Source: Sphaerisporangium siamense (GTDB lineage: Bacteria > Actinomycetota > Actinomycetes > Streptosporangiales > Streptosporangiaceae). Taken from it: a stretch of DNA of 64,000 nt. The stretch spans positions 3,100,001 through 3,164,000 of the forward strand of contig NZ_JACHND010000001.1 in assembly GCF_014205275.1 (NCBI RefSeq), given 5' to 3'. Positions 33,651 to 51,055 of this stretch are shown here, in pieces (the stretch's first letter is position 1; every line of letters starts with the position of its first letter). The translations under genes and the position numbers were made by a program. Under the pieces are notes generated by a model, which did not search any database, was not told where the DNA came from, and saw only the letters and a program-made list of their open reading frames with translations.

Positions 33651-33658
33651 CGGTGCCA

Positions 33659-33686: not shown

Positions 33687-33738
33687 TGGTGGTCGTCCGC
33701 ATGGCGGGGACGACAGACACCAAGGAGATGGCAGAGCG

Positions 33739-35846: not shown

Positions 35847-36065
35847 ACCGCCTGATCGCGCCGAGCGGCACCGCTGGAAAAGGTCCTCGCCTCCGGCTCG
35901 GGCTGTTCTTCCCAGGGGGGCTCCCGCCCCCTTCGACCCCCAGCGTGCGGGCCGTAATGGACGACGGAGCACAGGCCTCTCCGTGCGGGGCCGCCTGTCT
36001 GATACCCGTGCACGCACGACCCCCGCGCCGTAGCCTGAATGTCCAGGTCTCAGGAGGTCAGGGCG

Positions 36066-37271
36066 ATGAGCAATGACGTAACCATCGGGGCCCGGCTACG
36101 GACGCTACGCCGCTGGCGGGGCATGACCCTCGCGCAGCTCGCCGGGCAGGTCGGACTTTCCCCGTCGTTCCTGAGCATGGCCGAGCGCGGAGAGAGACTT
36201 CTTGACCGGCGGTCGCACATCTCCGCGCTGGCCGCGGCGCTCAACGTGTCGGAGATCGAGCTCACAGGGACGCCCCAGATGGGCCGCGACGCCGCTCAGA
36301 CCGCGCCCCGCAGCGCGATCCCTCTCCTTCGTGCCGCGCTGACTGGTAACAGCCTGGACGATCCGGCGGCCGAGACGGGCCGTCCTCTCCCGGTGCTGGA
36401 CGCCTTCCTCTTCGGCGAGCTGGCCGACATGCGCAACTCCGCCGACTACGAACGACGCGCGCGACTGGTCGCCCCGGTCATCGATGAGCTGCACTGGCAC
36501 GCCGCCACAGGGGACGAGCGGTCCCGCCGCCATGCTCTCCGGCTCCTCGTGGAAGCCTGCAACGCGGCGGGTATGACTCTGAAGCACCTTGGGAATCAGG
36601 ACCTCGCCTATGTGGCCGTGGCCAGGGCGAGCGATGCGGCACTGCTCCTGGACGATCCGGTCGCGACCGCGCACTCGGCCTACCTCAGAGTCATGATCAT
36701 GCCGAAACCTCGTGGCTGGGGGCGCCCGTACAGCATCGCGTCGAAGGCGGCGGACGCGCTGGAGGCGCACGTGAGACCGGGGACCGCCGCCGAGCTCTAC
36801 GGCATGCTGCATCTGACCGCGGCGCTGTCCGCGGCGGCCGTGCACCGGCCCGACCTCGCCGACGACCATCTCGCCGAGGCGCGGGACGTTGCCGCGCGCA
36901 CGGGCGAGAGTCCCAGGGCGTTCGCGGCGTTCGGTCCCGCCAACGTCGGTGTATGGAGTCTGGCGGTGGCCATGGAGTACGGGGACTACCAGCGCGCGAT
37001 CGAGATGTCATCCAACGTGATGCCGGACGTCATGCCCAACCGTGAACGTATCGCCACCTTCCACGCGGACAAGGGACGAGCGCTGGCTCACCTGAAACGA
37101 GGTCTCCCCGCCGTCACCGAACTCAAGGCAGCCGAACGGATCGCCCCCCAGCGCGTCCGCAACAGCACCGCCGTACAGGAGACGGTCCAGCACCTCCTCG
37201 GCCAGCAGTTGCCCACGACTTTGACCCGGGAACTCCGCGGGATGGCCGCACGAATGGGTATCCCGCACTGA
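36066..37271 (+). CDS. XRE-family regulator with C-terminal TPR-like helical repeats
   Basis: In this 401-residue protein the N-terminal helix-turn-helix (about residues 6-65, MTLAQLAGQVGLSPSFLSMAE) is followed by roughly 330 residues of alpha-helical, alanine-rich repeats typical of TPR sensor domains. In Gram-positive bacteria such regulators often bind small peptides or sense cell-cell signals; whether this one does is unknown. GGAGGTCAGGGCG lies before the ATG. Directly downstream are a TTCACA-TC-TGTGAA palindrome, a 47-codon ORF and a very strong terminator, an arrangement that would suit regulator plus small effector. Confidence 0.85.
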   Translation: MSNDVTIGARLRTLRRWRGMTLAQLAGQVGLSPSFLSMAERGERLLDRRSHISALAAALNVSEIELTGTPQMGRDAAQTAPRSAIPLLRAALTGNSLDDPAAETGRPLPVLDAFLFGELADMRNSADYERRARLVAPVIDELHWHAATGDERSRRHALRLLVEACNAAGMTLKHLGNQDLAYVAVARASDAALLLDDPVATAHSAYLRVMIMPKPRGWGRPYSIASKAADALEAHVRPGTAAELYGMLHLTAALSAAAVHRPDLADDHLAEARDVAARTGESPRAFAAFGPANVGVWSLAVAMEYGDYQRAIEMSSNVMPDVMPNRERIATFHADKGRALAHLKRGLPAVTELKAAERIAPQRVRNSTAVQETVQHLLGQQLPTTLTRELRGMAARMGIPH

Positions 37272-37285
37272 CCGGATCCGGTCAC

Positions 37286-37299
37286 TTCACATCTGTGAA
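37286..37299. promoter_or_regulatory. Perfect palindrome TTCACA-TC-TGTGAA
   Basis: The palindrome is 15 bases after the XRE-TPR stop and 35 bases before the small ORF at 37334. It is likely an operator. TAACGT at 37321-37326 could act as the -10 element. Confidence 0.55.
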
Positions 37300-37333
37300 T
37301 CCGTGTGGTCACTGAGCGTTTAACGTCGGCTGC

Positions 37334-37477
37334 GTGGACGTGTGTGATCTCGCCGAGCCCGAGCCGCATGAATGGCCGGCGCATCCCGCTGAAACTTCGG
37401 CATGGCCGCCAGGTCGGTCGCCGAAGTCGTCTGTGGTCGTAGCGGAAGGCGTCCTACTTCGGGAGATCACGCTCTAA
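37334..37477 (+). CDS. Candidate 47-residue peptide gene
   Basis: A GTG-started frame encodes a Pro/Glu/Trp-rich peptide beginning MDVCDLAEPEPHEWPAHPAE, with one Cys and two Trp. TAACGT seven bases before the GTG suggests a leaderless transcript, and a 15-bp-stem terminator starts five bases after the stop. The unit (operator, promoter, short ORF, terminator) is compact and self-contained. No family is recognised. It may be a peptide ligand of the upstream XRE-TPR regulator, a RiPP-like precursor, or a non-coding RNA. Confidence 0.4.
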   Translation: MDVCDLAEPEPHEWPAHPAETSAWPPGRSPKSSVVVAEGVLLREITL

Positions 37478-37481
37478 GTAC

Positions 37482-37517
37482 GGGTCGGCCGGAGCGCGGC
37501 ATCGCTCCGGCCGACCC
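37482..37517 (+). terminator. Very strong terminator hairpin
   Basis: A perfect 15-bp stem, GGGTCGGCCGGAGCG and its complement, encloses CGGCAT and is followed by TTGATC. It is one of the most stable hairpins in the window. Confidence 0.9.
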
Positions 37518-37659
37518 TTGATCAGGAACTGAGGTCCTGACCCGTGAGCAACATTAGAGCCATCAGAATCCAGTGGCATGCCATCTGTCCGCCCAAGCGG
37601 TTCGGATGCCGACGGCGCGACCATGGTCGCCGCGGCGTGCCGGCGAATGGCGGCGCAGC

Positions 37660-37947
37660 GTGAGCCGCACAGCGGGCAGACACCAGGAAGGTACGCCCTT
37701 CACCGAGGTTCGGCCCGTGCGGTGGGACGCGGGCAAGCGAGCCTTGGCCGCCCAGATGGATCGGCTTGAGCCGGGCTGGCATGTCATGTACGGACTGTGG
37801 AGTCGTCGGTTCTACGCCATCGCGACCTGCTGCCCGGTCGCGATGATCGTCGAGGCCCGCACGCCCGAGGAACTGCGCGAGCGGATGCGTGAGGGCGAGC
37901 TTGAGGCGATGACATCGGTGCGTGCGCCCATGACGAAGGTGGCATGA
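37660..37947 (+). CDS. Small hypothetical protein
   Basis: This is a 95-residue protein with a basic N-terminus and a compact C-terminal part containing MDRLEPGWHVMYGLWSRRFY, a CCPVAMI strand and RTPEELRERM. It looks like a small alpha/beta domain. Similar short proteins accompany XRE regulators in Streptosporangiales-type genomes, but I cannot name a family. The start is uncertain: GTG 37660 is used here. Its stop overlaps the next start (ATGA), so the two genes are coupled. Confidence 0.6.
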   Translation: MSRTAGRHQEGTPFTEVRPVRWDAGKRALAAQMDRLEPGWHVMYGLWSRRFYAIATCCPVAMIVEARTPEELRERMREGELEAMTSVRAPMTKVA

Positions 37948-38465
37948 GATCCTTCGGGCAGTACGCCGGTCGTGGCAGGCATGTCCACCCCAGTGCCAGC
38001 GGGTCGGACTTATCCGGGATATCCGCTGAGTGCCAGGTGCCTGACGCGTACGGGATGCGCGATCCGAGAGTCAGCGTCGGCGGATACATGCCCCGGCACG
38101 GCGGAACCGCAGAGGCTCATACGCGCGCGGTGGATCGCGGGTGGGAGGCGGCCCTTGCGGGGGAGTACCGGCTCGCCGCTCTCAACCGCGACTACCCGGC
38201 GTGGCGGATCGCCCGCGTACGACGCAGCGACGGCACCCACGGCGGCTGGTGGGCGTTCCGCCACGCCCCACTCACCCCTGCCGAGCGCACGGCCGGCCTG
38301 TACCCGTCCATCGCCCGCCGCAACGCCGTGGACTTGGTGATGGAACTCACCGCCCAGAACGACATCGCCGCCGAACTCGCCGCCCATCTCCACCCGGCCG
38401 AATCAGAGAGGAACCGTCAATGCTCGCGGTGCGGGAGTTCACCGTCGGCGATGTCACGGCGCTGA
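37944..38465 (+). CDS. Hypothetical protein
   Basis: This 173-residue protein is coupled to the preceding gene. Residues 50-155 look like a folded domain with WEAALAGEYRLAALNRDYPAW, WWAFRHAPLTPAERTAGLYPS and a C-terminal helix. The first 48 residues are low complexity, so an ATG at 38088 (MPRHGGTAEAHT) could be the real start. The last dozen codons run through the ribosome binding site and start of the next small gene. No family is recognised. Confidence 0.55.
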   Translation: MRSFGQYAGRGRHVHPSASGSDLSGISAECQVPDAYGMRDPRVSVGGYMPRHGGTAEAHTRAVDRGWEAALAGEYRLAALNRDYPAWRIARVRRSDGTHGGWWAFRHAPLTPAERTAGLYPSIARRNAVDLVMELTAQNDIAAELAAHLHPAESERNRQCSRCGSSPSAMSRR

Positions 38466-38569
38466 CCATTGTGGGGTTGTTCATCGTGGTGTGCCTGGTG
38501 CTGGCCGTGCTGGAGAACCGAGACGCCCCAGACACCCCTGAGGACGACCGTGACGGACTCGAATGGTAG
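38420..38569 (+). CDS. 49-residue single-pass membrane protein
   Basis: The short protein has one transmembrane helix (about residues 14-30, ALTIVGLFIVVCLVLAV) and a strongly acidic tail rich in Asp/Glu/Pro, so the C-terminus is likely cytoplasmic or a partner-binding tail. AGAGAGGAA precedes the ATG. It overlaps the end of the upstream gene by 46 bases in another frame. Together with the two preceding genes it forms a three-gene small-protein operon. Confidence 0.6.
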   Translation: MLAVREFTVGDVTALTIVGLFIVVCLVLAVLENRDAPDTPEDDRDGLEW

Positions 38570-38603
38570 CTGGAGTCTAGATAGGGCGTGGCACTGGCAG
38601 CCC

Positions 38604-39140
38604 TCAGATGAGACCGTTCTCCGTGGCCCAGGTGACGAACTGGCCTCGCGGAAACGGGAGCCGGTACTCACTGGACAAAAGGTCATCGGCGAGTTCGCTG
38701 ACAAGTGTGGGGGTGAGTAGGCCTTGTCTGATGGCGTCGCAGAGAAGAGCGAGGGTGGGGCGGTTCTTGATCTTGTGGGTCTCGGCCGCCTTGCGTGCGG
38801 CGCGGTCGTCCACGATGGCCACTGCACCCATGGTCGAGGCCAGGGCCAGGACTCCAGCCTCACCCCAGTTTCGATCCTTCTTGACGAGCAAGGCGGAGAA
38901 ACGCCCGAACGCCGCCAGCTCGTCGGTGCTGCACAGTTGGTACTTCTCGATCCAGGGCGCGGTCAGCACCGCCGCGACGCCGCTGTGCCGTACGGCACCG
39001 GTCTGTAACTCCTGGACGACCACGTCGGGTATCAATGCTCTGCGCGTGCCGACTACGGCCTTCAAGGGGCCCAGCCAGTTGTTGATCGCGAAATGACTGA
39101 GGGGGCCCGTGTCGAAGACGAGCACTTCTTCGGCGTTCAT
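38604..39140 (-). CDS. PIN-domain-like ribonuclease, candidate toxin of an XRE-ImmA pair
   Basis: This is a 178-residue protein with PIN-fold acidic residues: Asp10 in VFDTGPLSHF, Glu44 in VVQELQTG, Glu94 in WGEAGVLAL and Asp111/Asp112 in AIVDDRAAR. PIN proteins cut RNA and commonly act as toxins. It starts six bases after the stop of the XRE-ImmA gene and is surely in the same operon. Toxin status is inference. It converges with the small membrane protein gene. Confidence 0.8.
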   Translation of the reverse strand: MNAEEVLVFDTGPLSHFAINNWLGPLKAVVGTRRALIPDVVVQELQTGAVRHSGVAAVLTAPWIEKYQLCSTDELAAFGRFSALLVKKDRNWGEAGVLALASTMGAVAIVDDRAARKAAETHKIKNRPTLALLCDAIRQGLLTPTLVSELADDLLSSEYRLPFPRGQFVTWATENGLI

Positions 39141-39146
39141 CGGGGG

Positions 39147-40265
39147 TCAGGACACGAACTGCCAGATGGCGCTGTCCGGGAGGGGATCGACCACCGGGAG
39201 GTCCTCCTCGTTCCACGCGTCCATGAGAAGGTCCGTCGCGCGGGCGCCGGAAATCGTGGCATTGCGGTAGAGCCGCAGGATCGACGCGATATACGGCTTC
39301 GGGAGATAGGGCGAGGGGCTGATCTCTTCCCAGACCACCAGATTGAACTCGACGATGTCGGACTTGGTGGTACGGACACTGCGGACCTGGTGTGCTTCGG
39401 TGGCATCGACGAGGTTCAGTTCACGCAGGCGCCGCGCCAGAGTGGACATGTCAACCCGGAACACACTGCCGGCTTTGACGGCGGCCGTGCGCAGGTCGGA
39501 ATCACGCCGGAACCGAGTCCAGGCATGCGTGAGCCCTTGAGGAGGAAGAAGCAGGGCTCGAGCGAAGCGGTCGAGCCGTGATTCCCAGATGTCGTCACCC
39601 TCCTGCTCGGCGATGCGCCAGTCGACGGTATAGGCGTCCGCGAAGAGGTAGTGGCCCAGCTCATGGGCGGCGGCGAGGCGGCGCCGGCCGGCGTGAAGGC
39701 CTCCGTTCACGACGGCCACGCCTCCCTGTCCTAGCAAGATCGACGCCGCGTCGGCGGCATCGGCTCCCATGTCGAAACCGAACACGAGAAGGCCCGCCTT
39801 CGCCGCATGACCTGACACGTCCAGAAGGGGAGCGTTCTCCGTCAGCCCCAGCAACTTGCGTGCGTCGGCGGCGGACTTCTCGGCGGCCCGCCCCGACTCC
39901 GGACGCGCCAGATTCGGAGTGTCGAGTGCCAATCTCTCGTCGTGTGCCAAGGCGAACTCGACATGCCGGGCGAGCCGCTCTACCAGGCGGTCGATCGCCG
40001 GGCTCTTGGCTCCGGGTTCCTGAAGGTTGCGGTGCGACACGACCGAGGCGGGAGCCGGCGATACGAACCACTCGATTCGCTCATCGAGCGCCACGGCTAT
40101 GCGGGCCAGTTCCAATGCGGACACTCGGCGGGAACCGCTCTCGATCTTCGCAAGAGCCGAGCGTTCCAGTGAGACCGTCGCCGCGAGTTCGGCCTGGGTC
40201 ATCGCGGCCCGATGGCGTGCCTCGGCGATCCGTTCACCGAGCCGACCGGTCTCCTCGTCGCTCAC
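39147..40265 (-). CDS. XRE DNA-binding protein fused to an ImmA/IrrE metallopeptidase
   Basis: This 372-residue protein has an N-terminal helix-turn-helix (about residues 8-65, MTQAELAATVSLERSALAKIE) and a zinc-peptidase domain with HELGH (201-205). ImmA/IrrE proteins cleave repressors and release phage, mobile-element or stress genes. Xre-COG2856 fusions have been proposed as antitoxin-like partners of various toxins. Here the downstream partner is a PIN protein. The GTG at 40265 lies seven bases after a TAGAAT -10, so the mRNA is probably leaderless. Confidence 0.88.
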   Translation of the reverse strand: MSDEETGRLGERIAEARHRAAMTQAELAATVSLERSALAKIESGSRRVSALELARIAVALDERIEWFVSPAPASVVSHRNLQEPGAKSPAIDRLVERLARHVEFALAHDERLALDTPNLARPESGRAAEKSAADARKLLGLTENAPLLDVSGHAAKAGLLVFGFDMGADAADAASILLGQGGVAVVNGGLHAGRRRLAAAHELGHYLFADAYTVDWRIAEQEGDDIWESRLDRFARALLLPPQGLTHAWTRFRRDSDLRTAAVKAGSVFRVDMSTLARRLRELNLVDATEAHQVRSVRTTKSDIVEFNLVVWEEISPSPYLPKPYIASILRLYRNATISGARATDLLMDAWNEEDLPVVDPLPDSAIWQFVS

Positions 40266-40272
40266 GTGTGCG

Positions 40273-40301
40273 ATTCTAGAACACGCGGTGGGCCCCCTCA
40301 A
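40273..40301 (-). promoter_or_regulatory. Sigma-70-type promoter TTGAGG-N17-TAGAAT
   Basis: On the minus strand a near-consensus -35 and -10 with ideal spacing drive the XRE-ImmA/PIN operon. The GTG start is at the expected +1. Confidence 0.75.
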
Positions 40302-40346
40302 TGGCAATCAGGTAAACGCCATGGTCAGAGGGGGTCCGCCGGTAGA

Positions 40347-41783
40347 TCAGCCGAGGCGGGCGATGGACTTGTATTCCAGGTAGGACGTCAGGCCCTCGGG
40401 GCCGAGTTCGCGGCCTATGCCGCTCGCTTTGAAGCCGCCGAACGGGGTGGAGGGGTCCATGGTGTTCATCAGGTTGACGCCGTAGGTGCCGGTGCGGACG
40501 CGGCGGGCGATGTCCATGCCGTGGTCGGTGTCGGCGGTCCAGACGGAGCCGGACAGGCCGTAGTCGCTGTCGTTGGCGATGCGGACGGCGTCCTCCTCGT
40601 CGCGGTAGGGGATGACGGCCAGCACCGGGCCGAAGATCTCCTCGCGGGCGACGCGCATGTCGTTGGTGACCCCGGCGAAGACGGTGGGGGCGACGTACCA
40701 ACCCTTGTCGCGGGGGCGGTCGAGGCCGCCGACGACGGGCTTGGCGCCCTCCTCGATGCCGGACCTGATGTAGCCCTCGACGCGTTCCTGCTGCCGCTTG
40801 GCGACGAGCGGGCCGATGCCGGTGGCCGGGTCGGACGGGTCGCCCACCTGCTGGCCGGCCACCATGTCCGCGACGGCCTGCACGACCTCCTCGTAGCGGG
40901 AGGCGGACGCGAGGATGCGGGTCTGCGCCACGCACGCCTGGCCGTTGTTCATCAGGGAGGCGATGGACAGGAAGCCCATCGCGGCGGTCAGGTCGCAGTC
41001 GTCCAGGATGATCGCCGCCGACTTGCCGCCCAGTTCGAGGCTGCAGCGCTTGAGCTGCTCGCCGCAGATGGCCCCGATGCGGCGGCCCGCCGCCGTGGAG
41101 CCGGTGAAGGCGACCTTGTCGACGCCCGGGTGCGCCACCAGGTGCTCGCCGGCCTCCCGGCCCGCGGCGACGATGTTGACCACGCCCTCCGGGACGCCGG
41201 CCTCCCGGATCATCTCGGCGAGCGGGTAGGCGTCCAGCGGCGTCTCGGGCGCGGGTTTGATCACGATGGTGCATCCGGCGACGAGCGCGGGCGCGAGCTT
41301 GGTCATGATCACGAACTGGGGGACGTTCCACGGCACGATGGCGGCGACCACGCCGACCGGCTCGCGGCGCACGACGACCGGGCCGAAGACGCCGGGGCGC
41401 TCGTCCTCGACCGCGAACGTCCTGCCGAGCGCGCTGTAGTACTGGAGCATGCCGAGCGGCTGCGGGGCCTGGGCCAGTCGCGAGAACGTGATGGGGGAGC
41501 CCATCTCCCGGGTGATCAGCTCGGCCATCTCGGCCTGGCGCGCGGCGTACAGGTCGGCGAGCCTGCCGACCACCTCGGCGCGCTCGGCCATGGTCATCCG
41601 CGGCCAGGGGCCGTGGTCGAAGGCGCGGCGGGCGGCCTCGACGGCGCGGTCCATGTCGGCGGGGGTGCCGTCGGGGACCCGGCCGACGATCTCCTCGGTG
41701 TGGGGGGAGACGACGTCGATCGTCCCGGTGCCCGCGGGGGCCACCCAGTCGCCTCCGATGAAAAGACGGTCGTGCTGGAGCAT
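40347..41783 (-). CDS. Aldehyde dehydrogenase family protein
   Basis: This 478-residue NAD(P)-dependent enzyme oxidises an aldehyde to an acid. Catalytic residues are Asn154 (PWNVPQF), Glu250 (CSLELGGKS) and Cys284 (NNGQACVAQ). The ATG at 41783 has a GAAGGAGG site nine bases upstream. The protein resembles broad-specificity ALDH members of catabolic pathways; the substrate is not predictable. It stands alone between the XRE-ImmA promoter and the insertion element. Confidence 0.94.
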   Translation of the reverse strand: MLQHDRLFIGGDWVAPAGTGTIDVVSPHTEEIVGRVPDGTPADMDRAVEAARRAFDHGPWPRMTMAERAEVVGRLADLYAARQAEMAELITREMGSPITFSRLAQAPQPLGMLQYYSALGRTFAVEDERPGVFGPVVVRREPVGVVAAIVPWNVPQFVIMTKLAPALVAGCTIVIKPAPETPLDAYPLAEMIREAGVPEGVVNIVAAGREAGEHLVAHPGVDKVAFTGSTAAGRRIGAICGEQLKRCSLELGGKSAAIILDDCDLTAAMGFLSIASLMNNGQACVAQTRILASASRYEEVVQAVADMVAGQQVGDPSDPATGIGPLVAKRQQERVEGYIRSGIEEGAKPVVGGLDRPRDKGWYVAPTVFAGVTNDMRVAREEIFGPVLAVIPYRDEEDAVRIANDSDYGLSGSVWTADTDHGMDIARRVRTGTYGVNLMNTMDPSTPFGGFKASGIGRELGPEGLTSYLEYKSIARLG

Positions 41784-42022
41784 TCGGGCGTGCCTCCTTC
41801 GGGCGGACGGCCGGGGATCGCGAATCCGGCGGCGCGACGGTGGGCCGCGACGCCCGGACCCTAGTGACCGAATCATGTTCTGGCCGCGTTGGCAAGGCGC
41901 GGGGCCGGGGCGGTGCGACGGCGGCGCGGGCGGCGCGATACGGTCGGGCCCGATTCCGGGGAAACCGAGCTCCTGCATCTTCCTAAAGTGGTAGATAGTT
42001 CGCCAATGGTGTGTAGGTTCTT
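41784..42022. other. Spacer upstream of the aldehyde dehydrogenase
   Basis: This should contain the dehydrogenase promoter on the minus strand. No gene is supported. The left limit of the insertion element lies near its end. Confidence 0.35.
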
Positions 42023-42129
42023 CCGATCGTGTGGCGCCCTGCAAGATCGGCTCCTAGAGTCTCGGGGTGTCCGGGAAGTGGGAGGGCCGATCGAACTCTT
42101 GGGCGCAGAGTGCGGTGCCCTGGGTACCG

Positions 42130-42448
42130 CGCGGCGTTCTCGGCGGTCGGATCGAGGAACGCCTGCAGGACCTCGGGGTCGTGAGGTCGTGGACGAGAAA
42201 GGGGCATGGCTATGGAGATGGAGGTCATGCCGGACCCCGTGCATTTCTTGGTCGACGTCGGCGCGCAGTACGGCGTCCATCGGTTGGACAAGGCCATCAA
42301 GGGCCGGTCCTCCGGCGTGCTGCGAGAGGAGTTCCCCCACCTGATGTCGCCGCCTCCACCGTTGTGGACCAAGTCCTTCTTCGTGGCCACGGTCGGCGGC
42401 GCACCCCTGGCCATCGTGAAGCGGCACGTCGAGCGGAAGGGCCGCTGA
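42130..42448 (+). pseudogene. tnpA: Decayed IS200-like TnpA (Y1 HUH transposase)
   Basis: The C-terminal 75-80 residues are intact in the frame from 42206: the MPDPVHFLVDV strand with the second half of the catalytic fold, GVHRLDKAIKGRSS, VLREEFPHL and LWTKSFFVATVGGAPL. The preceding piece RGVLGGRIEERLQDL lies in another frame (from 42130), and the N-terminal HUH part is missing. At least one frameshift plus a 5' loss have inactivated it. It abuts tnpB (TGAATG). Confidence 0.8.
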
Positions 42449-43642
42449 ATGCTGACTGGCCGCCGCTACCTGCTGGCGTTTACGCCCGAGCAGGAGGAGT
42501 TCAGCGAGAAGATCGGCGATGCCTGCCGCGCGGTGTGGAACACCGCGTTGGAGCAGCGGCGCGAGTACCGGCGGCGCGGAGTGTGGATCAACTACGTGGA
42601 GCAGGCCCGGCAGATGGCCGAGGCCAAAAGGGACTTTCCATGGCTGGCCGAAGCCCCTTCGCACACGCTTCAGCAGACGCTTCGCGATCTTGAGCGGGCG
42701 TGCGAAACGCACGGCACCTTCAAGGTCCGGTGGCGGTCCAAGCGCAAGAGCCCGCCGTCGTTCCGGTTTCCCGATCCCAAGCACATCTCCGTCGAGCGCG
42801 TCTCCCGCCGGTGGGGCCGGGTGCGGTTGCCCAAGCTGGGCTGGGTGCGATTCCGCTGGACGCGTCCGCTGGCGGGCGAACTGCGTAACGCCACCGTTCT
42901 CACGGACGGCGGGCGCTGGTTCATCTCGTTCTGCGTGGAGGATGGTCTGGTGGAGTCTGCGCCGAACGGCAAACCGGCCGTGGGCGTGGACCGTGGCGTG
43001 AGGATCGCCGTGGCCGCCTCCGACGGATGGACGCGTGATCGTGAGTTCGTCACCCCGGGCGAGGCGGCCCGATTGAAGCGGCTTCAGCGCAACCTCGACC
43101 GGCAGCGCAAGGGTTCCAATCGGCGCGCAGCCACCCGAAAGAAGATCGGGAAGTTGAACGCCCGCATCCGCTCTCGCCGTACCGACTTCACCGCCTGGAC
43201 CGCCAACCGGCTTACCCGCGACCACGGTGTGGTCGTGGTGGAGGACCTGAGGGTCCGTAACATGACCGCCAGCCCGAAGGGAAGCGTCGAAGCGCCAGGC
43301 AAGAATGTTCGGCAGAAGGCCGCCTTGAACCGGGCGATTCTGGCCAAGGGCTGGGGCGGCCTGCTGAGCACTTTGGAACACAAGGCTCGTTACAACGGCT
43401 CCCGCGTCGTGCGGATGCCCGCCGCCCACACCTCGCAGCGCTGTTCGGCGTGCGGGACGGTGGATGCGAAGTCCCGCGAAAGCCAAGCGGTCTTCGCCTG
43501 CACCTCCTGCGCCTATACCGCCAATGCCGATGTGAACGCGGCCAAGAACATTCTCGGGGCCGGGCTGGCCCTGACAGGGCACGGAGACCTCGGGGTTGCC
43601 CGGTCTGTGAAGTGCCAACCACCCAAGAGTGAGGCAGCGTGA
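42449..43642 (+). CDS. tnpB: RNA-guided endonuclease TnpB
   Basis: This is a 397-residue TnpB/Fanzor-type protein. The RuvC triad is complete: Asp181 (GVDRG), Glu265 (VVVEDL) and Asp361 (NADVNAAKNIL). A zinc finger with Cys332/Cys335 and Cys351/Cys354 lies between the last two. TnpB proteins use an RNA derived from the element's right end to cut the donor-joint DNA next to a target-adjacent motif and so keep the element in place. Nothing in the sequence suggests loss of activity. The guide scaffold should lie across the tnpB 3' end and 43,694. Confidence 0.92.
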   Translation: MLTGRRYLLAFTPEQEEFSEKIGDACRAVWNTALEQRREYRRRGVWINYVEQARQMAEAKRDFPWLAEAPSHTLQQTLRDLERACETHGTFKVRWRSKRKSPPSFRFPDPKHISVERVSRRWGRVRLPKLGWVRFRWTRPLAGELRNATVLTDGGRWFISFCVEDGLVESAPNGKPAVGVDRGVRIAVAASDGWTRDREFVTPGEAARLKRLQRNLDRQRKGSNRRAATRKKIGKLNARIRSRRTDFTAWTANRLTRDHGVVVVEDLRVRNMTASPKGSVEAPGKNVRQKAALNRAILAKGWGGLLSTLEHKARYNGSRVVRMPAAHTSQRCSACGTVDAKSRESQAVFACTSCAYTANADVNAAKNILGAGLALTGHGDLGVARSVKCQPPKSEAA

Positions 43643-44592
43643 ACGCGTCTCAGCCACGGGAGTCTCTCGCCTTCAGGTGTGGGGAGGAAGTCAAGCGTTC
43701 AGGCCGTGTGGCGGGGCTGGCGGCCGTCCTGCTCGCGCTTCTCTCGGTGCTCGCCGTGCCACGGGCCGAGGCCAAGCCCAACCCGCAGGCGCAACTCGAC
43801 AGGCTGACCAAGCAGGCCGCCGACCTCCAGAAGCGCTACCGGGGCGAGATCCAGAGCCTGGAGGACGCCCGCCGCGCCGTGCAGAAGGCCGGCGCCCGCG
43901 TCAAGAAGCTCCGCGCCGACCTCGCCGCCGCCGAGGACCGGGTCGCGCAGTTCTACGCCGGCTCGTACATGACCGGCAACATCGACGGCGCCCGGGTGAT
44001 CAGCTACAACGGTGACCCGGACACGATCCTCAGCCAGGTCGCGACCGTCACCTATATCGCCGAGGAGAAGAACCAGCGGCTGGCCTACATCGGCAGGCTG
44101 ATCGAGGAGCAGAAGGCCGCCAAGAAGCTCGCCGACCGCAAGGTCGCCGACCTCAGGGACGAGATCAAGGACCTCCAGGCCAAGCAGCGCCAGGTCGAGG
44201 AACTGCTGAAGAAGTTCGGCTTCCAGACCCCCGACGCCGGCAGCGGCCTCACCCCCCGCATGATCAGCGTGAGGAACGTGATCATGCAGAAGTTCCCCAT
44301 GCCGTTCAGCGTCGGCTGCCTGCGCGTGGGCGACCCGGGCGAGCACGGCAAGGGCCGCGCCTGCGACTTCATGATGAGCACGGGCGGTCGCATGCCCGAC
44401 GCCGCCTCCCAGGCCAGGGGCGACGCCCTGGCCCAGTGGTGCATCGAGAACGGCCGCCAGATCGGCATCATGTACATCATCTGGCGGCAGCGCTACTACG
44501 ACATCCGCACCGGCGCGGGCTGGCGCCAGATGTCCGACCGCGGCGGCATCACCGCCAACCACTACGACCACGTGCACGTGTCGGTCTTCTGA
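43639..44592 (+). CDS. Secreted coiled-coil protein with ARB-07466-like C-terminal domain; N-terminus rebuilt by the IS right end
   Basis: This 317-residue protein has three parts. The signal-like hydrophobic stretch GLAAVLLALLSVLAVPRAEA (about residues 25-44) directs export. A long coiled coil (about 48-200) follows, with a C-terminal domain (about 210-317, CDFMMSTGG and a final HYDHVHVSVF) resembling the ARB-07466 / D,D-carboxypeptidase-like fold of cell-wall hydrolases. Its GTG start overlaps the tnpB stop, so residues 1-18 are encoded by the insertion element. The native start was probably lost at the insertion, or lies at the in-frame GTG at 43708. The final 148 bases are duplicated downstream. 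Confidence 0.85.
   Translation: MNASQPRESLAFRCGEEVKRSGRVAGLAAVLLALLSVLAVPRAEAKPNPQAQLDRLTKQAADLQKRYRGEIQSLEDARRAVQKAGARVKKLRADLAAAEDRVAQFYAGSYMTGNIDGARVISYNGDPDTILSQVATVTYIAEEKNQRLAYIGRLIEEQKAAKKLADRKVADLRDEIKDLQAKQRQVEELLKKFGFQTPDAGSGLTPRMISVRNVIMQKFPMPFSVGCLRVGDPGEHGKGRACDFMMSTGGRMPDAASQARGDALAQWCIENGRQIGIMYIIWRQRYYDIRTGAGWRQMSDRGGITANHYDHVHVSVF
43643..43694 (+). ncRNA. Right end of the element and likely 3' part of the omegaRNA
   Basis: The sequence contains the imperfect hairpin GGAGTCTCTCGCCTTCAGG...GGGGAGG followed by AAGTCAA. This matches the conserved right-end layout of IS605 elements, where the omegaRNA scaffold ends and the guide begins. The guide would then be read from host DNA at 43,695 onward. 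This assignment is from family layout only. Confidence 0.5.
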
Positions 44593-44593
44593 C
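44446..44593 (+). repeat. 148-bp direct repeat, copy 1 (3' end of the ARB-like gene)
   Basis: Identical base for base to 45746-45893, exactly 1,300 bp away. Homology starts in GAGAACGGCC and ends at the base after the TGA stop. Confidence 0.95.
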
Positions 44594-44830
44594 AAGCACG
44601 CACACCACGTCACCACGCGTGGCCGGCTGGCGGAAGCCGAGCGTGCCGGCTGACACGCCAGTGGCACTGATCCATACGGGAGTAGACCACAGCCTCCAGG
44701 GCGCCATATCGGCGAACGACCGGGCCAATCGAACGTTGGCGGCCGTTCATTCGCCGCAAGACTTTTTGCGTCGACGTGGTGTTGCGAGGGGCACCTGAAT
44801 CCACACAGAGCTCTTCGTCGCTTTCATCGT

Positions 44831-45073
44831 CTACCTGGTAGAGGCCACGGCCGAATCGCCAATACGGTCGGGCAGGTCCTTTCGGTAGTCCTCGAGCCGT
44901 GATACTTCGTCGGCCCCCTTTTTTTCTGATCCAGAAGACTTAAAACGGACGTCCCGCTGCTTCGTGCCGTGCGTGAACTGTTCAGAAGGCATGGGCTTAC
45001 GTGTGACCTGGGCCACAGATTGCTGGCCGACTTCGCTGGTGTCGTATGCGTGCTTTGCGGCCTGAGCTGGCAA
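44831..45073 (-). CDS. Doubtful 80-residue hydrophilic ORF
   Basis: A TTG-started frame encodes a charged, Lys/Asp/Ser-rich protein ending LEDYRKDLPDRIGDSAVAS. It has no ribosome binding site, and the upstream frame closes 50 bases earlier without an ATG. Third-position GC is lower than in host genes. It could be a gene fragment carried in with the low-GC insert. Confidence 0.25.
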   Translation of the reverse strand: MPAQAAKHAYDTSEVGQQSVAQVTRKPMPSEQFTHGTKQRDVRFKSSGSEKKGADEVSRLEDYRKDLPDRIGDSAVASTR

Positions 45074-45101
45074 TATGACAGATAGCGTCGGATGGATTAC
45101 T

Positions 45102-45122
45102 GCGACATAAACTATGTGTCGC
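45102..45122. promoter_or_regulatory. Inverted repeat GCGACA-N9-TGTCGC
   Basis: Six-base perfect arms flank TAAACTATG in the AT-rich spacer. It may be an operator for either flanking frame. Confidence 0.35.
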
Positions 45123-45272
45123 GCGCAAAGTCAAAACCTTTCTTTCGGGCATTGGATGAGGCATTCTTCTGAGTGTGCCGATCGCGGTCGCGGACTATTT
45201 GCAGATGATCTTCACTGCGAAACATTCCCGATCGCCCTATGGTAAATCCCTCGTCGAAAGGTGGAATTCTCA

Positions 45273-45614
45273 ATGTTCAAGCGCGTGGTTCTCGGTGCAA
45301 CCGGTGTCGTGGTCGCTGCTCTGGCGGTTACCGCCTCGCCTGCGGCCGCCGAGGTCGGTGGCCCGGCCCCTGCTCCGTCCAATGGGAACGTCTCCATCTT
45401 GTCCATCCCCCCCGGTTGCAGTGCGTGGATCGACCAGCCCGGCAATCACGGGCGGGGTCACCTGAACTGCGTCGGCAGCGGTCGAGATGTGCGGGTCACC
45501 GTTGCTTGCGGGAGCGGTGGCACGGTCAAGCGGAGCGCCGTCGGTTATGAATACGCCAAGGCGGAGTGTCCGGCCCCGCTCGGGGCCGTCGCTGTGAGCG
45601 GCGACTACGTCTGA
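45273..45614 (+). CDS. Small secreted cysteine-containing protein
   Basis: This is a 113-residue preprotein with a Sec signal peptide (MFKRVVLGATGVVVAALAV, cleavage near ASPAAA-EV). The mature part of about 88 residues has four cysteines (PPGCSAW, LNCVG, VACGS, AECPA), enough for two disulfides, and looks like a small beta-rich secreted domain. No family is recognised. An AAAGGTGG site precedes the ATG. It is the only convincing gene inside the segment bracketed by the 148-bp repeats. Confidence 0.75.
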   Translation: MFKRVVLGATGVVVAALAVTASPAAAEVGGPAPAPSNGNVSILSIPPGCSAWIDQPGNHGRGHLNCVGSGRDVRVTVACGSGGTVKRSAVGYEYAKAECPAPLGAVAVSGDYV

Positions 45615-45745
45615 TCTAGCTGATCATTTCTGGGGCAGGGGCCAGTGACGTGTTCTGCGCGTCCTGGCTCCTTGTCATGCATCAGGGATCTTGCCGGCCA
45701 CTGCGCGTATACCCCGAGACTGGGGCGCCGGTGCTTGGCGTTCAA

Positions 45746-45893
45746 GAGAACGGCCGCCAGATCGGCATCATGTACATCATCTGGCGGCAGCGCTACTACG
45801 ACATCCGCACCGGCGCGGGCTGGCGCCAGATGTCCGACCGCGGCGGCATCACCGCCAACCACTACGACCACGTGCACGTGTCGGTCTTCTGAC
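45746..45893 (+). repeat. 148-bp direct repeat, copy 2 (detached 3' end of the ARB-like gene)
   Basis: An exact copy of 44446-44593. It forms the last 48 codons of a frame with no proper N-terminus, so as a gene it is a fragment. The 3' end of the convergent exporter gene reads 45 bases into it. Confidence 0.95.
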
Positions 45894-47051
45894 CGGCGTC
45901 CCTCCGACCGCCCCGCGGAAGAGCAGGGCGAGGACGAGCGCGACGGCGACCAGGACGCCACCGGCCCAGACGGGCCCCAGTTCGGCCGCCCCGGTGTTCA
46001 GGGCCGCGGCGGCGACGATGGGGCCGATGAAGGCGCCGACGTTGAGAGCGGCGGTGGCGTAGGAGCCCGCCATGGTCGGCGCCCCCGCCGCCTCGTACAG
46101 CGCGCGTGCGATGAGCGTGCCGCCCACGGCGAAGGAGAGCGCGCCCTGGGTGAACGTAAGGATCAGCAGCGCGATCGGGCCGGGCGCGAGCAGGCCGAGG
46201 GCGACCCAGCCGCCGAGGAGCAGCGGACCGCCGGCCGCGACGACGACGCCGGGCCGCCGGTCGGACAGCCGCCCGGCGACGGTGACGCCGGCGAACGAGC
46301 CCAGGCCGAACAGCACCAGCGCGACGGGGACCCACAACGGTTCAAGCCCGGCCACATCGGTGACGATCGGGGCCAGGAACGTGAAGGCGCCGAACGTCGC
46401 CGCGTTGACCAGCGCGCCCAGCAGCAGGACCACGATCAGTCGTGGACTCCGCAGCCGGGCCAGCTCCCCGCGCAGATCCGGGCCCGCCGCCTCCTCCGAC
46501 CGTCCCGCGCCGGCGGGAACGCCCCGTGCCACGCCGAGCGCCGACGGCACGCACAGGAGCGCCACCAGCCAGAAGGTGGCGCGCCAGTCGAGCAGCGTCC
46601 CCAGCAGGGCTCCACCGGGCACCCCCGCGACGGTGGCGGCCGTGGTCCCCGCCAGCAGGACGGCCAGCGCCCGGCCCTTCCGGTCGGCGGGGACCAGGGC
46701 CGCGGCCGTGGTGAGCGCGACGGCGAGGAAACCGGCATAAGCCAGGGCCGCGACGACCCGGCTGACGAGCAGGACCGCGAAACCGCCGGTGACGGCGCCG
46801 ACGACGTGCGTGGCCAGGAACAGCGCGAGGAACACGAGAAGCGCGGACCGCCGCGGCCACCGGCGCGCGACCCCGGCCATCAGCGGGGCGCCGACGGCCA
46901 TCCCGACGGCGAAGGCCGACGTGAGCAGTCCGGCCGTGGCGATCGGAACGCCGAGATCCGCGGCGATGTCCGGCAACAGGCCGGCGAGCATGAACTCCGA
47001 CGTGCCCATGGCGAACACCGCCACGGCCAGCGAATAGAGAGGCAGAGGCAT
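45849..47051 (-). CDS. MFS exporter of the Cmx/CmlR chloramphenicol-efflux type
   Basis: This 400-residue protein has twelve hydrophobic helices. The N-terminus FAMGTSEFMLAGLLP, the TSAFAVGMAVGAP segment and PADRKGRALAVLLAGTTAAT closely match the chloramphenicol exporter Cmx of corynebacteria and its actinomycete relatives. Chloramphenicol or another small drug is the likely substrate, though related carriers have other substrates. CGGAG lies seven bases before the ATG. The last 15 residues are read antisense through the 148-bp repeat, so the C-terminal tail depends on that junction. Confidence 0.9.
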   Translation of the reverse strand: MPLPLYSLAVAVFAMGTSEFMLAGLLPDIAADLGVPIATAGLLTSAFAVGMAVGAPLMAGVARRWPRRSALLVFLALFLATHVVGAVTGGFAVLLVSRVVAALAYAGFLAVALTTAAALVPADRKGRALAVLLAGTTAATVAGVPGGALLGTLLDWRATFWLVALLCVPSALGVARGVPAGAGRSEEAAGPDLRGELARLRSPRLIVVLLLGALVNAATFGAFTFLAPIVTDVAGLEPLWVPVALVLFGLGSFAGVTVAGRLSDRRPGVVVAAGGPLLLGGWVALGLLAPGPIALLILTFTQGALSFAVGGTLIARALYEAAGAPTMAGSYATAALNVGAFIGPIVAAAALNTGAAELGPVWAGGVLVAVALVLALLFRGAVGGTPVRRPTRARGRSGWR

Positions 47052-47337
47052 CGAGAGGCTCCGAGGTGAGGAGAGATCAGAAAAGACGTCTCGTCACCGC
47101 GCTCAGCGGCCCATCTCTCCGTCCTGTCGGCCGCCACCATGTGGCGTGGACAGGCTCACTCAGTGGTTCAGGGGGCTGACGGGTGACCGAAAGCCCCCAC
47201 CTTGTCCGCCTCTGGACTCGACATACCGCCCAACCTACTCACCCACCCCACCCCGCGCATCCCGGTTTCCGCTCGTTCACGGATCCCGGCCGCGCCGGAG
47301 GGCAAAGCTGAGCGCGCCTGGGCTTGGAGATCCGGCC
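47052..47337. other. Spacer between the exporter and the graspetide genes
   Basis: The exporter promoter should lie here on the minus strand. A minus-strand three-codon ORF (ATGGGCCGCTGA) after GGAGAG could act as a leader, as drug-exporter genes sometimes have, but this is weak. Nothing else is recognised. Confidence 0.3.
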
Positions 47338-48498
47338 CTAGACCGGCAGACGCCATCGGGGCCCGTCTGGCGCGCCGAGCCATATCCACTGCGCGGACGG
47401 GCTCACGCTGAGTCCGAACGCCGACTGGTGGGGCGAACCGGCTCTCCGCCATGTCTCGATCGCGTCTTCCACGGCGTCCCAGAGCCGCAGCGGCCCGTGC
47501 TGGCGTACCGTCCAGCCGGCCGCTCCCGCCTTCCTCGTGCTGGCCTGTGAGCCTGTCGCGACGTCCAACAGGATCATCTCGTCGCCTGCTCCCAACTTCT
47601 CCGCCGACGGCGCGGCGAGTTGGGCGACGAAACACCCCGTCCAGTCATCGAGAGTGCTCGGGTCTATTCTGCTCTCCCGCTCGTCGCCGATGCCGAGCAT
47701 GTAGGACGCGCGCGGAGGGCGACCGTGGGGGCGGGCGTTCATGAAGGCGACGTTGTACGGGTGAAAGCGCCCCGAAGCCGTGCCGTCGTCGGCGAGGGTG
47801 AGGTGGGCCAGCGCGTTGCCGTCCATCCAGCCCCACATAGGGGTGGTGATGGTGCCACCGTCGCGGACCTGCCACATCCATGCCGGAGGGATGAAACGCA
47901 CGGAACAGGTGGCGATCAGCCGGTCGTACTCGGCGTTCTTTTCATACCCGTTCAACCCGTCGCCGACGATCAGCGTCGGTGAGTGGTCACATGCCTCGAT
48001 CGCTTTTCGGGCATGGGCCGCGACGCCGGGATCGCATTCGATCGAGGTCACGGCCTCACTTCCCAACCGGTGACACATCAACGCCGTGGAATAGCCCGTT
48101 CCCGTCCCGATCTCCAGCACCTTGTCGCGGTCGCCGATCTGTGCCGCCTCCAGCATGCGAACGACCAGACCGGGAGACGAGGAGGACGACGTCGGATCGC
48201 CGTGTACGGGGGCCCGAGCGTCGGCGGCCATGACGCCGTCGAGCTGTGTGACCCAGGTGTCGTCCGCGTAGGCCAGGCGCAGCCAGTCGGCATTGCTCAT
48301 GTCGCTCCGCCGTACCGGCTCCCATATCGTCCCCTTCTCGTCTCCCTCCGTGGCCTGGTAGACCGCCTCCCCGAGGAACAACTCGCGTGGCACCACCTTG
48401 ATCGCTTGGCACCACCGAGGGTCGGTGAGCGCTCCGGTCTCACCGAGCAGGCCGGCCAGGGCCGACCGCAGTGCGTCAGACTCCGTGGGGATGGTCAT
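47338..48498 (-). CDS. tgmC: PIMT-like methyltransferase of the ATP-grasp (graspetide) peptide maturation system
   Basis: This 386-residue protein is related to protein-L-isoaspartate O-methyltransferase. The SAM motif VLEIGTGTGYSTAL is at residues 127-140, and a family-specific extension of about 170 residues follows. In graspetide loci such enzymes methylate an aspartate, leading to aspartimide or isoaspartate in the modified peptide. The ATG at 48498 overlaps the stop of the ATP-grasp gene (ATGA). The gene itself is intact although its upstream partner is broken. Confidence 0.88.
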   Translation of the reverse strand: MTIPTESDALRSALAGLLGETGALTDPRWCQAIKVVPRELFLGEAVYQATEGDEKGTIWEPVRRSDMSNADWLRLAYADDTWVTQLDGVMAADARAPVHGDPTSSSSSPGLVVRMLEAAQIGDRDKVLEIGTGTGYSTALMCHRLGSEAVTSIECDPGVAAHARKAIEACDHSPTLIVGDGLNGYEKNAEYDRLIATCSVRFIPPAWMWQVRDGGTITTPMWGWMDGNALAHLTLADDGTASGRFHPYNVAFMNARPHGRPPRASYMLGIGDERESRIDPSTLDDWTGCFVAQLAAPSAEKLGAGDEMILLDVATGSQASTRKAGAAGWTVRQHGPLRLWDAVEDAIETWRRAGSPHQSAFGLSVSPSAQWIWLGAPDGPRWRLPV

Positions 48499-49200
48499 GC
48501 GCGATCCTTTGCCAGTTGTAGATGGTCGGCGATGGCGCTGGCGATACGTGCGGGGATCGGTTCGGGAAACCAAGCCCATTGACCGTTCGGATTGCACTCC
48601 AGAAAGATCCATTCATCTTCTCGGGTCAGGGCGAAGTCGAAGGCCCCAAAGATCAACCCAAGACGATCGAGATAGGCGCGAATCGCGCCGGCTATCGGCG
48701 ATGGAGCTTCGATGAGCGAATAAGAGAGCTCAGGGTAATGCCGTCGCCAGTCCAACCCTGACGCGCCGTCGATTCGAACTGGAAAAATCTTGTCCCCGAC
48801 CACGGTGACCCGCACATCCGCGATCTTCTCGACCTGCCGCTGGAAGAGGTGCGCGGCGTGGTTGATGGATGCGCTGATCTCATCCGGTGCGACCGTCTGT
48901 GTCCACACGTTGACAGCCGTGCCGTCCGGTCTGTTCGTCCAAGCGCGGTGAACGCCGATAAGGGGTCGGCTTTCGCCAGTACACCGATCGCACATCGGCA
49001 AGATCCAGACTCCGCGTCGCCGTATGGATCGAGCCGGACATGCCGCGGGTATCGAAATAGGCGCTCATGTGGGAATCGCTGGGAAACTCGGCCCCCGGAT
49101 CGAAGCGCACGACAGGGACGTCGCGGTCGTGCAATTCGGCCGGCACCAGGTCGGCGGTCGGGTCGTCGAGGCAGGTGACCGCCAGCACTGGTGCGTTCAC
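48495..49200 (-). pseudogene. tgmB: ATP-grasp peptide ligase with internal deletion and frameshift
   Basis: The N-terminal part (from GTG 49200) is a normal maturase start: VLAVTCLDDPTADLVPAEL through VYWRKPTPY. The C-terminal part, in a different frame and ending at 48495, has the maturase end VWTQTVAPDE, VEKIADVRVTVVG, FGAFDFALTRED and FLECNPNGQWAW. Family members are about 300-330 residues, whereas the two parts add up to only about 220. Roughly 100 residues of the central ATP-grasp region are missing, and the junction (about 48,925-48,960) is out of frame. The enzyme should be inactive. It sits three bases after the precursor gene and overlaps tgmC. Confidence 0.85.
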
Positions 49201-49203
49201 CGC

Positions 49204-49476
49204 TCAGTCCGGCGTGTAGTCGGTGGTCGAGTCGGGCCTGGCCGGAGGAGGAGGCTTGGCATCTCCGCCGTCGGGTCCGGACGGTTGTGTCGCGGTTGGC
49301 TTGCTCTGGTTGGTCCCATGCTTTCCGGCCTCAAGTGTTCGGCCGGTCGGGTCCACCCATTTACCGGTTTGTGTGGCGGCATCCAGTACGACGCGATAGT
49401 CGGGAATGGTCCCCTGGGATGGTGGGAACGGAGCCATGCGAGAGATGCCCCAGGGCATTACCGGTAAATAGTGCAT
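49204..49476 (-). CDS. tgmA: ATP-grasp-modified RiPP (graspetide) precursor
   Basis: This 90-residue precursor has the leader features of the family: PWGISRMAPFP near residues 9-19, then DYRVVLDAATQTGKWVD with the TQxGxW-type block. The C-terminal core is rich in Thr, Asp, Gly and Pro and ends TTDYTPD, which supplies the Thr/Ser hydroxyls and acidic side chains that the ligase would join as esters. GAGGGGGAA precedes the ATG. The maturase downstream is broken, so the product may no longer be made unless another ligase acts on it. Confidence 0.88.
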   Translation of the reverse strand: MHYLPVMPWGISRMAPFPPSQGTIPDYRVVLDAATQTGKWVDPTGRTLEAGKHGTNQSKPTATQPSGPDGGDAKPPPPARPDSTTDYTPD

Positions 49477-49522
49477 ATCGCTTCCCCCTCTGCGACCGCC
49501 TTACCGTATGCGTCGATGGTAA
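49458..49522. promoter_or_regulatory. TTACC/GGTAA repeats at the tgmA promoter
   Basis: A perfect TTACCGGTAA palindrome (49458-49467) lies in the first codons of tgmA. TTACC-N12-GGTAA (49501-49522) lies 25 bases upstream and overlaps a possible -10, TACGGT. The repeated half-sites suggest an operator. The rest of the spacer to 49,738 contains no gene. Confidence 0.45.
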
Positions 49523-49738
49523 CTCGGCTGCTCCGGCATGGCGAGTCGCTCAATATCAAACCGTGGTTCGGCGCGGCTGATATTGCTGGTTTCGGCGCGA
49601 GAATGGGGTGCTGCTTGCGAAGGCTTTTTCGCTGTTGGTTATCGGTGTCGTCCGGACCGCGCGGCCCTTGTGCCGGGCGGGTACTCACTCGCCTCGCTGA
49701 GCGGGCTCTGGTTCTTCGGCCACGGGTACGTCGTGTGG

Positions 49739-51055
49739 TCATGGGGTGGAGGAGGAGGTGATTCTGTTCTTGAACCAGTGGTAGGAGGCTTTGGGGGTGC
49801 GGGTTTGGGTGGGGAAGTCGACGTGGACGAGGCCGAAGCGTTGGGTGTAGCCCTCGGCCCATTCGAAGTTGTCGAGGAGGGACCAGACGTAGTAGCCGCG
49901 TACGTCGACGCCCTCGGACATGGCGGCGCCGACGGCCTGGATGTGGGCGTCGAGGAAGGCGATGCGGTCCTGGTCGTCGATCACGCCGTCGGGGCCGGGG
50001 GTGTCCGGTTGTGAGCAGCCGTTCTCGGTGACGTAGACGGGGGGCAGGGCGTCGCCGTAGCGGGCCTTGAGGCCGGTGAGGAGTTCGCGCAGGCCGTCGG
50101 GCACCACTGGCCAGCCGAAGGCGGTGGTGGGGTATCCGGTGATCCCGGCGTCGTCGAAGGGGAGGCCGGTGGGCTCGCCGGGGGCGCGGATACGGGTGGG
50201 GTTGTAGTAGTTGACGCCGAGGCCGTCCAGGGGCTGGGCGATCACGGCGAGGTCGCCGTCGCGCACGGCCGGCATGGCGTCGACGCCGAACGCCGACAGG
50301 TCGGGGTAGCGGCCGAGCAGCACGGGGTCGTTGAAGAGCCGGTTGTGCAGGATGTCGTAGGCGTCGGCGGCCCGCAGGTCGTCCGCGGAGGAGGACGCGG
50401 GGCGGACGGGCGTGAGGTTGTTGGTGACCAGCACCCGTTCCGCGCCGTGCGCGCGCAGGGCCTGTGCCGCGAGCCCGTGACCGAGGAGCTGGTGGTGGGC
50501 GACGGGCAGGGCGTCGAGGAAGAGCATGCGGCCGGGGGCGTGGGTGCCGAGGGCGTAGCCGAACACCATGTGGACGAAGGGTTCGTTCAGCGTGATCCAG
50601 ATCGGCACGCGGTCGGCGAGGCGGGCGGCCACGACGCCGGCGTAGTCGGCGAGGCGGCTCGCGGTGTCGCGGGCGAGCCAGCCGCCCTCGTCCTCCAGAG
50701 CCTGGGGGAGGTCCCAGTGGAAGAGCGTGGCCGCCGGGACGATGCCCTGGGCGCACAGGCCGTCGACCAGCCGGTCATAGAAGTCGAGGCCCGCCTGGTT
50801 CACCTCGCCACGCCCGGCTGGGAGGATTCTCGGCCACGAAATGGAGAAACGATAGGAGTTCACCCCCAGGGCGGCCATGAGCATGACATCCTCTGACCAG
50901 CGGTGGTAATGGTCGCACGCCATATCACCGGTGTGGCCGTCCTTCACCTTGCCCGGTTCGTGGGCGAAGGTGTCCCAGATCGACAGGCCGCGGCCGTCGT
51001 CCGCCACGGCCCCCTCGATCTGGTATGACGCGGTTGCGGTGCCCCAGAGGAACAT
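49739..51055 (-). CDS. GH1 family beta-glucosidase
   Basis: This 438-residue TIM-barrel glycosidase has the acid/base Glu158 in ITLNEPF and the nucleophile Glu344 in YVTENGC. It also has the N-terminal GTATASYQIEGA and the C-terminal SLLDNFEWAEGY that lines the glucose site. It has no signal peptide, so it should act in the cytoplasm on imported beta-glucosides. It faces a TetR regulator gene across 133 bases. Confidence 0.95.
   Translation of the reverse strand: MFLWGTATASYQIEGAVADDGRGLSIWDTFAHEPGKVKDGHTGDMACDHYHRWSEDVMLMAALGVNSYRFSISWPRILPAGRGEVNQAGLDFYDRLVDGLCAQGIVPAATLFHWDLPQALEDEGGWLARDTASRLADYAGVVAARLADRVPIWITLNEPFVHMVFGYALGTHAPGRMLFLDALPVAHHQLLGHGLAAQALRAHGAERVLVTNNLTPVRPASSSADDLRAADAYDILHNRLFNDPVLLGRYPDLSAFGVDAMPAVRDGDLAVIAQPLDGLGVNYYNPTRIRAPGEPTGLPFDDAGITGYPTTAFGWPVVPDGLRELLTGLKARYGDALPPVYVTENGCSQPDTPGPDGVIDDQDRIAFLDAHIQAVGAAMSEGVDVRGYYVWSLLDNFEWAEGYTQRFGLVHVDFPTQTRTPKASYHWFKNRITSSSTP

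Follow-up and report, generated by a model that had tools for sequence, protein, structure and literature searches.

The window analysed here, a 64,000-nucleotide stretch of Sphaerisporangium siamense contig NZ_JACHND010000001.1 (positions 3,100,001 to 3,164,000 of the forward strand), contains an ARB-like gene whose 3′ end occurs twice, on either side of a segment that carries a small secreted-protein gene. The downstream occurrence runs into the 3′ end of a convergent exporter gene, and a TnpB element overlaps the start of the ARB-like gene. The features, numbered from the first base of the window, are as follows.

About 42092-43694: TnpB-only (IS200/IS605-type) element, TnpB assigned by NF040570 at 245 bits.
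43639..44592, plus strand: ARB-like gene (open reading frame), host of the duplicated 3′ end.
44446..44593, plus strand: direct repeat copy 1, comprising the last 48 codons of the ARB-like gene, its stop codon and 1 bp.
44594..45745, no strand: inserted segment, 1,152 bp, 60.9% GC, unmatched in the congener G007 and in 9 other genomes of the genus.
45273..45614, plus strand: small secreted-protein gene (open reading frame), 113 aa, with an alternative GTG start at 45261.
45745..45746, no strand: new, illegitimate joint at which insert DNA meets sequence from within the coding 3′ end of ARB.
45746..45893, plus strand: direct repeat copy 2, the displaced ARB 3′ end, in which the final 45 nt of the exporter gene also lie.
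45849..47051, minus strand: MFS exporter of the Cmx/CmrA family (NCBIfam NF033135 at 491 bits, cut-off 400; Pfam MFS_1).

The two copies, spaced 1,300 bp apart exactly where a sequence-only reading of this DNA had placed them, match at 148 of 148 positions, which rules out a chance repeat. Across 464 kb of the chromosome (the window and 400 kb around it), six exact direct pairs of at least 60 bp spaced no more than 30 kb apart were found; five fall together at 2.918-2.923 Mb, in a cluster whose sequences resemble one another, and the sixth is the 148-bp pair. When the genome, comprising an 8.49-Mb contig and one small contig, was searched with the 1,300-bp unit, the only other match among the best 40 of 67 candidates was the 3′ end of an ARB paralogue (C1:3880236, 77% identity). 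Transfer from elsewhere in the genome was rejected, as the same candidates included no further copy of the unit. Tandem gene duplication was likewise set aside, since the downstream copy is a 3′ fragment only and the intervening segment is unrelated.

The ARB-like protein has a signal-like N terminus, a middle that reads as coiled-coil-like and a conserved C-terminal domain. Its residues 201-316 match PDB 9flh, annotated as a ‘LysM domain-containing protein’, with an E value of 7.9e-20, and the protein has no Pfam match at E ≤ 0.001. Orthologues with 72-97% protein identity are present in 9 of the 10 other genomes of the genus, and G005 contains a 36% match only. At the nucleotide level, each of nine other genomes has one ARB 3′ end together with a paralogue, and G005 has the paralogue only.

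Comparison with G007, a member of the same genus with 95.6-96.3% nucleotide identity in three neighbouring blocks, revealed an unoccupied form of the site. There the order is ARB-like gene, a single 148-bp copy and exporter, with no insert. The sequence-only reading had proposed an ancestral convergence of the ARB gene and the exporter, split by an insertion, and had advised looking for it in relatives; G007 has just such an arrangement. Joining the outer flanks of the insert in silico produced a sequence that aligns to G007 across the junction gap-free, indicating that the two genomes differ here by addition only. Correspondingly, the sequence to the right of copy 2 continues as in G007, and the overlap of the downstream copy with the exporter 3′ end, already recognised from the sequence, amounts to 45 bases in both genomes. 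The 148 bp are strongly conserved, with 1 mismatch to G007 in 148 positions compared with 24 in the 745 upstream. A search of 11 genus genomes with positions 44300-45893 matched the insert in its own genome only, suggesting that the insert is new within the genus as sampled. The 1,300-bp unit, which the sequence-only reading had also advised looking for at the same gene end elsewhere, was not found again in its own genome (among the best 40 of 67 candidates) or in 10 others of the genus.

The polarity of this difference could also run the other way, as an ancestor of G007 could have lost the insert by recombination between the copies, recreating the empty site exactly. The same consideration tempers the earlier description of the integration as recent. 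Identity of the copies points weakly in that direction, but dating by zero differences is weak because the stretch is very conserved and conversion could keep the copies alike, and recombination in the G007 line would restore an empty site.

The two edges of the insert differ in character. Homology of the genus relatives to copy 1 ends within the ARB stop codon or one base beyond it, and the left edge of the insert lies one base past that stop, about where this homology ends; the left edge therefore needs no cutting event, because alleles of the locus already part there. The right junction (45745/45746) does not coincide with a boundary already variable among relatives. In six relatives (G006, G008, G002, G003, G010 and G009), ARB is followed, ~20-750 bp on as judged from the edges of aligned blocks, by the conserved gene that lies at window position 49738 and that reads as a putative GH1 beta-glucosidase. 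Accessory DNA immediately behind the ARB-like gene thus differs from one species of the genus to another. In two further relatives, the draft contigs end 11 bases (G004:C22) and 74 bases (G001:C73) past the ARB stop (L059 and L060), and these breaks may reflect repeats or hard-to-sequence DNA behind ARB there too.

We then characterized the inserted segment. Its measured length of 1,152 bp accords with the ~1.15 kb first estimated. The segment had been called low in GC, and this holds clearly for its first 679 bp (57.1%), but less so for the whole (60.9%) or for the small gene (68.1%); the flanks have 65-76%. As previously read, it contains one good gene, encoding one convincing protein of 113 aa that, by its sequence, has a signal peptide and a mature part with four cysteines. 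Homologues of this protein are sparse, occurring in 6 of 297 family genomes with our own included and 15 candidates scored per genome; three of the six are weak, and one of these three contains stops. Identity is 62% in G183 and 44% in G115. A scan of genome contigs gave at least one locus, that in Streptomyces sp. NRRL S-340 (66% over residues 44-113), and plasmid pSTRVI01 of Streptomyces violaceusniger carries one (62% over residues 48-113) ~2.4 kb from its parA-parB genes. The protein has no Pfam or NCBIfam family match and no counterpart in phage records, and its comparison with solved structures yielded nothing better than E 0.2.

With the whole insert as query and the best two candidates per genome retained, 11 of 200 family genomes, our own included, matched at E ≤ 0.001. 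G183 aligned at 68% over about 340 bases, and the remaining family matches extended over 26-63 bases at E above 1e-4. The same approach applied to 394 class genomes at E ≤ 1e-6 returned our own genome and G183 only, and every match in other family or class genomes, again among the best two candidates per genome, fell within the small gene. Plasmid records gave one partial match at E ≤ 1e-5, covering 17% of the insert, and phage records contained no similar DNA. Consistent with the remark in the sequence-only reading that no recombinase lies between the copies, Pfam and PHROGs searches of 10 of the 23 insert open frames of at least 40 aa recognised no recombinase or phage family; in the PHROGs search, the small protein was used in place of one of the ten frames. 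The best matches in these frames were weak (DUF1656 at E 0.014 and an AcrF1-type family at E 0.067 in Pfam; E 0.031, 0.057 and 0.087 in PHROGs) and lay below curated cut-offs where these exist. A phage origin was rejected, as phage records were unmatched and the PHROGs matches were weak only. The 51-aa protein-like open frame at 44930-45082 had no plasmid match and, among the 394 class genomes, matched only itself.

Neither an exact 10-bp repeat nor an exact 10-bp inverted repeat links the two ends of the insert. An insertion sequence or transposon was discarded on the grounds that no terminal repeats link the ends and that the duplication is 148 bp, not short. The possibility that the site holds a tRNA gene or another known RNA was also discounted; the window contains no tRNA, and positions 41500-50000 have no Rfam match at the gathering score.

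These features suggest that the insert probably arose by additive, Campbell-type integration of a foreign or strain-variant fragment through one crossover. Campbell-type recombination was among the possibilities raised by the sequence-only reading, and it is the best supported of the mechanisms considered, with a precedent in PMC3240628. A fragment that started within the 3′ part of an ARB allele and extended through ~1.15 kb of downstream DNA with the small gene would have entered the cell, and illegitimate joining of its two ends would have generated a 1.3-kb circle. One homologous crossover within the shared 148 bp would then have inserted the circle additively, leaving a whole ARB gene, the new gene and a displaced 148-bp ARB remnant still supplying the last codons of the exporter. 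The observed order of ARB, new gene, joint, ARB remnant and exporter is what one crossover would produce if the incoming fragment carried the small gene. Relatives lose homology at the left edge, so that edge is expected from a donor allele followed by different downstream DNA; the asymmetry of the two edges is predicted by an additive crossover and also by a gene-end integrase, but not by a random staggered break. A donor with ARB followed by insert DNA was not seen among the 11 genus genomes, and the identity of the two copies prevents us from placing the crossover. The genome encodes Ku, an end-joining protein. The event's direction, its circular intermediate, its donor and the enzymes that joined the ends are all inferred here.

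The closest experimental parallel comes from E. coli conjugation with DNA homologous to the recipient at one end. According to PMC3240628, 56 of 60 clones duplicated part of the homologous end, the 14 duplications that were sequenced measured 109-950 bp, and the authors favour partial degradation of the homologous end followed by re-circularisation and a single crossover. The present locus has the structure of the majority class in that experiment, being additive, with a partial gene-end duplication of 148 bp and no deletion. Unlike that plasmid in E. coli, the case described here is natural, occurs in an actinomycete and has a donor and an intermediate that are inferred. A broader comparison is offered by small variable segments of bacterial genomes, 10-18% of which are flanked by direct repeats in the species examined in PMC2884548, with 66-94% of these repeats under 30 bp. 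The present insert resembles the segments covered there in being small, present in one genome and not its relative, and bounded at its base by direct repeats, but differs in that a repeat of 148 bp is long.

On this evidence, the locus records a known kind of event, a clean insertion with a long direct duplication, and not a new element; ordinary recombination is the most likely explanation, rather than a new kind of mobile element. The undescribed non-autonomous element also entertained by the sequence-only reading, one that rebuilds the gene end it enters, was not borne out, as a second unit was not found among the best 40 of 67 candidates in the genome and the insert is unmatched in the other 10 members of the genus. 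The value of the locus lies in its being a clean natural example of an accessory gene added behind a conserved gene, with its neighbours unharmed and no recognisable mobile element, and for which an empty site is available in a sister genome.

We weighed the additive crossover against several other explanations. The one that survives best, although unlikely, is site-specific integration into the gene 3′ end, in which the insert would be a remnant or satellite whose attachment site includes the ARB 3′ end and whose integrase has been lost or acts in trans. Elements that integrate at gene ends keep both gene ends whole, and CIMEs, or integrase-less genomic islands, are stretches of foreign DNA set between direct repeats of the 3′ end of a gene that stays whole. 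The locus shares with CIMEs the gene-3′-end repeats around foreign DNA and the whole gene; identity of the 148 bp stops one base past the stop codon, both gene ends are whole and the copies are identical. It departs from them in that no integrase remnant was recognised and neither a related element nor a second use of the target was found, the 10 of 23 insert open frames being free of recognisable recombinases. Nor does the genome contain another near-identical ARB 3′ end among the best 40 of 67 candidates. In 150 family genomes (own included, five candidates per genome), a second ARB copy within 20 kb was seen among the matches listed only in G036, which has two full-length tandem paralogues. 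The six genus relatives leave no room for such an element, because the next conserved gene follows so closely behind ARB.

The distribution of the 148 bp on mobile DNA bears on this integration in both directions. Plasmid records yielded 35 matches, 23 of them typed conjugative, which places related domain sequence on mobile plasmids; these matches are too diverged for an identical attachment site, save perhaps for 3 records in the 90-95% band that lie outside the rows shown. In the rows shown, they are mostly Rhodococcus M23 peptidase genes at 71-75%, and the top plasmid-record match is an 11.85-Mb, chromosome-sized Nonomuraea record at 86%. Phage records gave 3 matches at 74-83%, and searches of viral contigs with peptide patterns and with one exact pattern of 39 bases found none with the ARB end. 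The phage and plasmid matches fit a common protein domain and provide no evidence for an attachment site, although they do show that the domain at the ARB end travels on plasmids. Among the matches listed for its own genome, the genus, the family, phages, plasmids and viral contigs, no related element was found at the same attachment site, and an attachment-site element with its integrase in trans was ranked lower solely because no second example appeared among them.

Quite unlikely, in our assessment, is capture of a foreign fragment in a double-strand break with ends staggered by ~148 nt, the overhangs being filled in and sealed by Ku-type end joining. The Ku gene is present, and such a break would account for an additive insertion with exact duplication and no loss. 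It would, however, be luck for the edge to fall one base past the stop codon, where homology of the relatives ends, and the 464 kb scanned contain no other isolated exact duplication of at least 60 bp within 30 kb. To our knowledge, the targeted insertions so far described duplicate stretches far shorter than 148 bp, which also speaks against a staggered break.

Improbable as well is a late arrival of the exporter side, with the 1,152 bp already resident behind ARB when a G007-like fragment, reaching from the last 148 bp of ARB through the exporter, was joined in. The exporter, convergent with ARB and adjoining it in G007 too, is absent from the fetched stretch behind ARB in the same six relatives (this comparison omits G001 and G004, whose contigs end, and G005, which is without an ARB orthologue); the exporter thus came to occupy this place in the lineage that comprises the present genome and G007. 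Its divergence from G007 is 8.0%, whereas three flanking blocks differ by 3.7-4.4%; a later exchange is therefore possible, and the exporter side may have a history of its own. This late-arrival account nevertheless calls for a pair of illegitimate joints without any crossover. Had the exporter come in by a single crossover, the gene order would be the reverse of that observed. In none of the 10 other genus genomes searched does the insert lie beside ARB. Exporter homologues with 69-80% identity are found on other contigs in the three relatives searched for them (G001, G004 and G005).

One-sided homologous recombination (homology-facilitated illegitimate recombination, HFIR) without a circle, in which a strand would invade the upstream part of ARB and the other end would be closed illegitimately inside the gene, would end in the same product, and we give it little probability. 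PMC5361080 proposes a similar model for displaced gene ends in Vibrio effector arrays, with a conserved upstream region of T6SS loci as the suggested anchor for incoming downstream genes. The T6SS effector/immunity arrays ascribed to HFIR in that paper resemble the present locus in having a conserved upstream anchor, a new gene behind it and an older part displaced; here, in contrast, all resident DNA is kept, and what has been displaced is a gene fragment instead of an immunity gene. As PMC3240628 states, HFIR products have generally lost resident DNA, whereas no such deletion is seen at this locus. HFIR was also the rarer outcome described there, with the other 4 of 60 clones in the E. coli experiment appearing to be HFIR events with deletions. 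An assembly artefact is very improbable for a two-contig genome with a unique 1,152-bp insert and a repeat of just 148 bp.

The TnpB element upstream raises a further, speculative variant of the additive crossover. This element is absent from G007 and G006, and a second copy was not found in its own genome among the best 40 of 169 candidates. G006 has GGGCTGATGCGTTCAGG at the position of the element, which places the insertion of the element at the ARB start codon as read there; today the longest ARB frame begins with a GTG that shares bases with the tnpB stop. TnpB guide RNAs direct cutting at unoccupied insertion sites, and a guide RNA from an element at the ARB start would be expected to correspond to the beginning of ARB alleles that lack the element. 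As a speculation of low probability, TnpB might have cut an incoming ARB allele and so freed a fragment of ARB and downstream DNA, which was then joined and recombined into the occupied copy. If true, TnpB would drive gene capture behind its own insertion site, linking guided nucleases to gene capture.

Two further stretches of the window were noted in the comparisons with relatives. About 6.8 kb at 33583-40346 is unaligned to the fetched stretches of G007 and of the 8 further members of the genus that were compared. It reads as containing an XRE-type regulator (36039-37271) and, at 39147-40307, a helix-turn-helix/peptidase-like protein with sub-cut-off family matches only, beside which lies a small partner gene without a family match (38604-39140). 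Beyond the exporter, about 2.4 kb at 47299-49737, absent from G007, encodes a graspetide-type RiPP cluster with a precursor (TIGR04186), a methyltransferase (TIGR04188) and an ATP-grasp maturase (TIGR04187) that is split over two frames.
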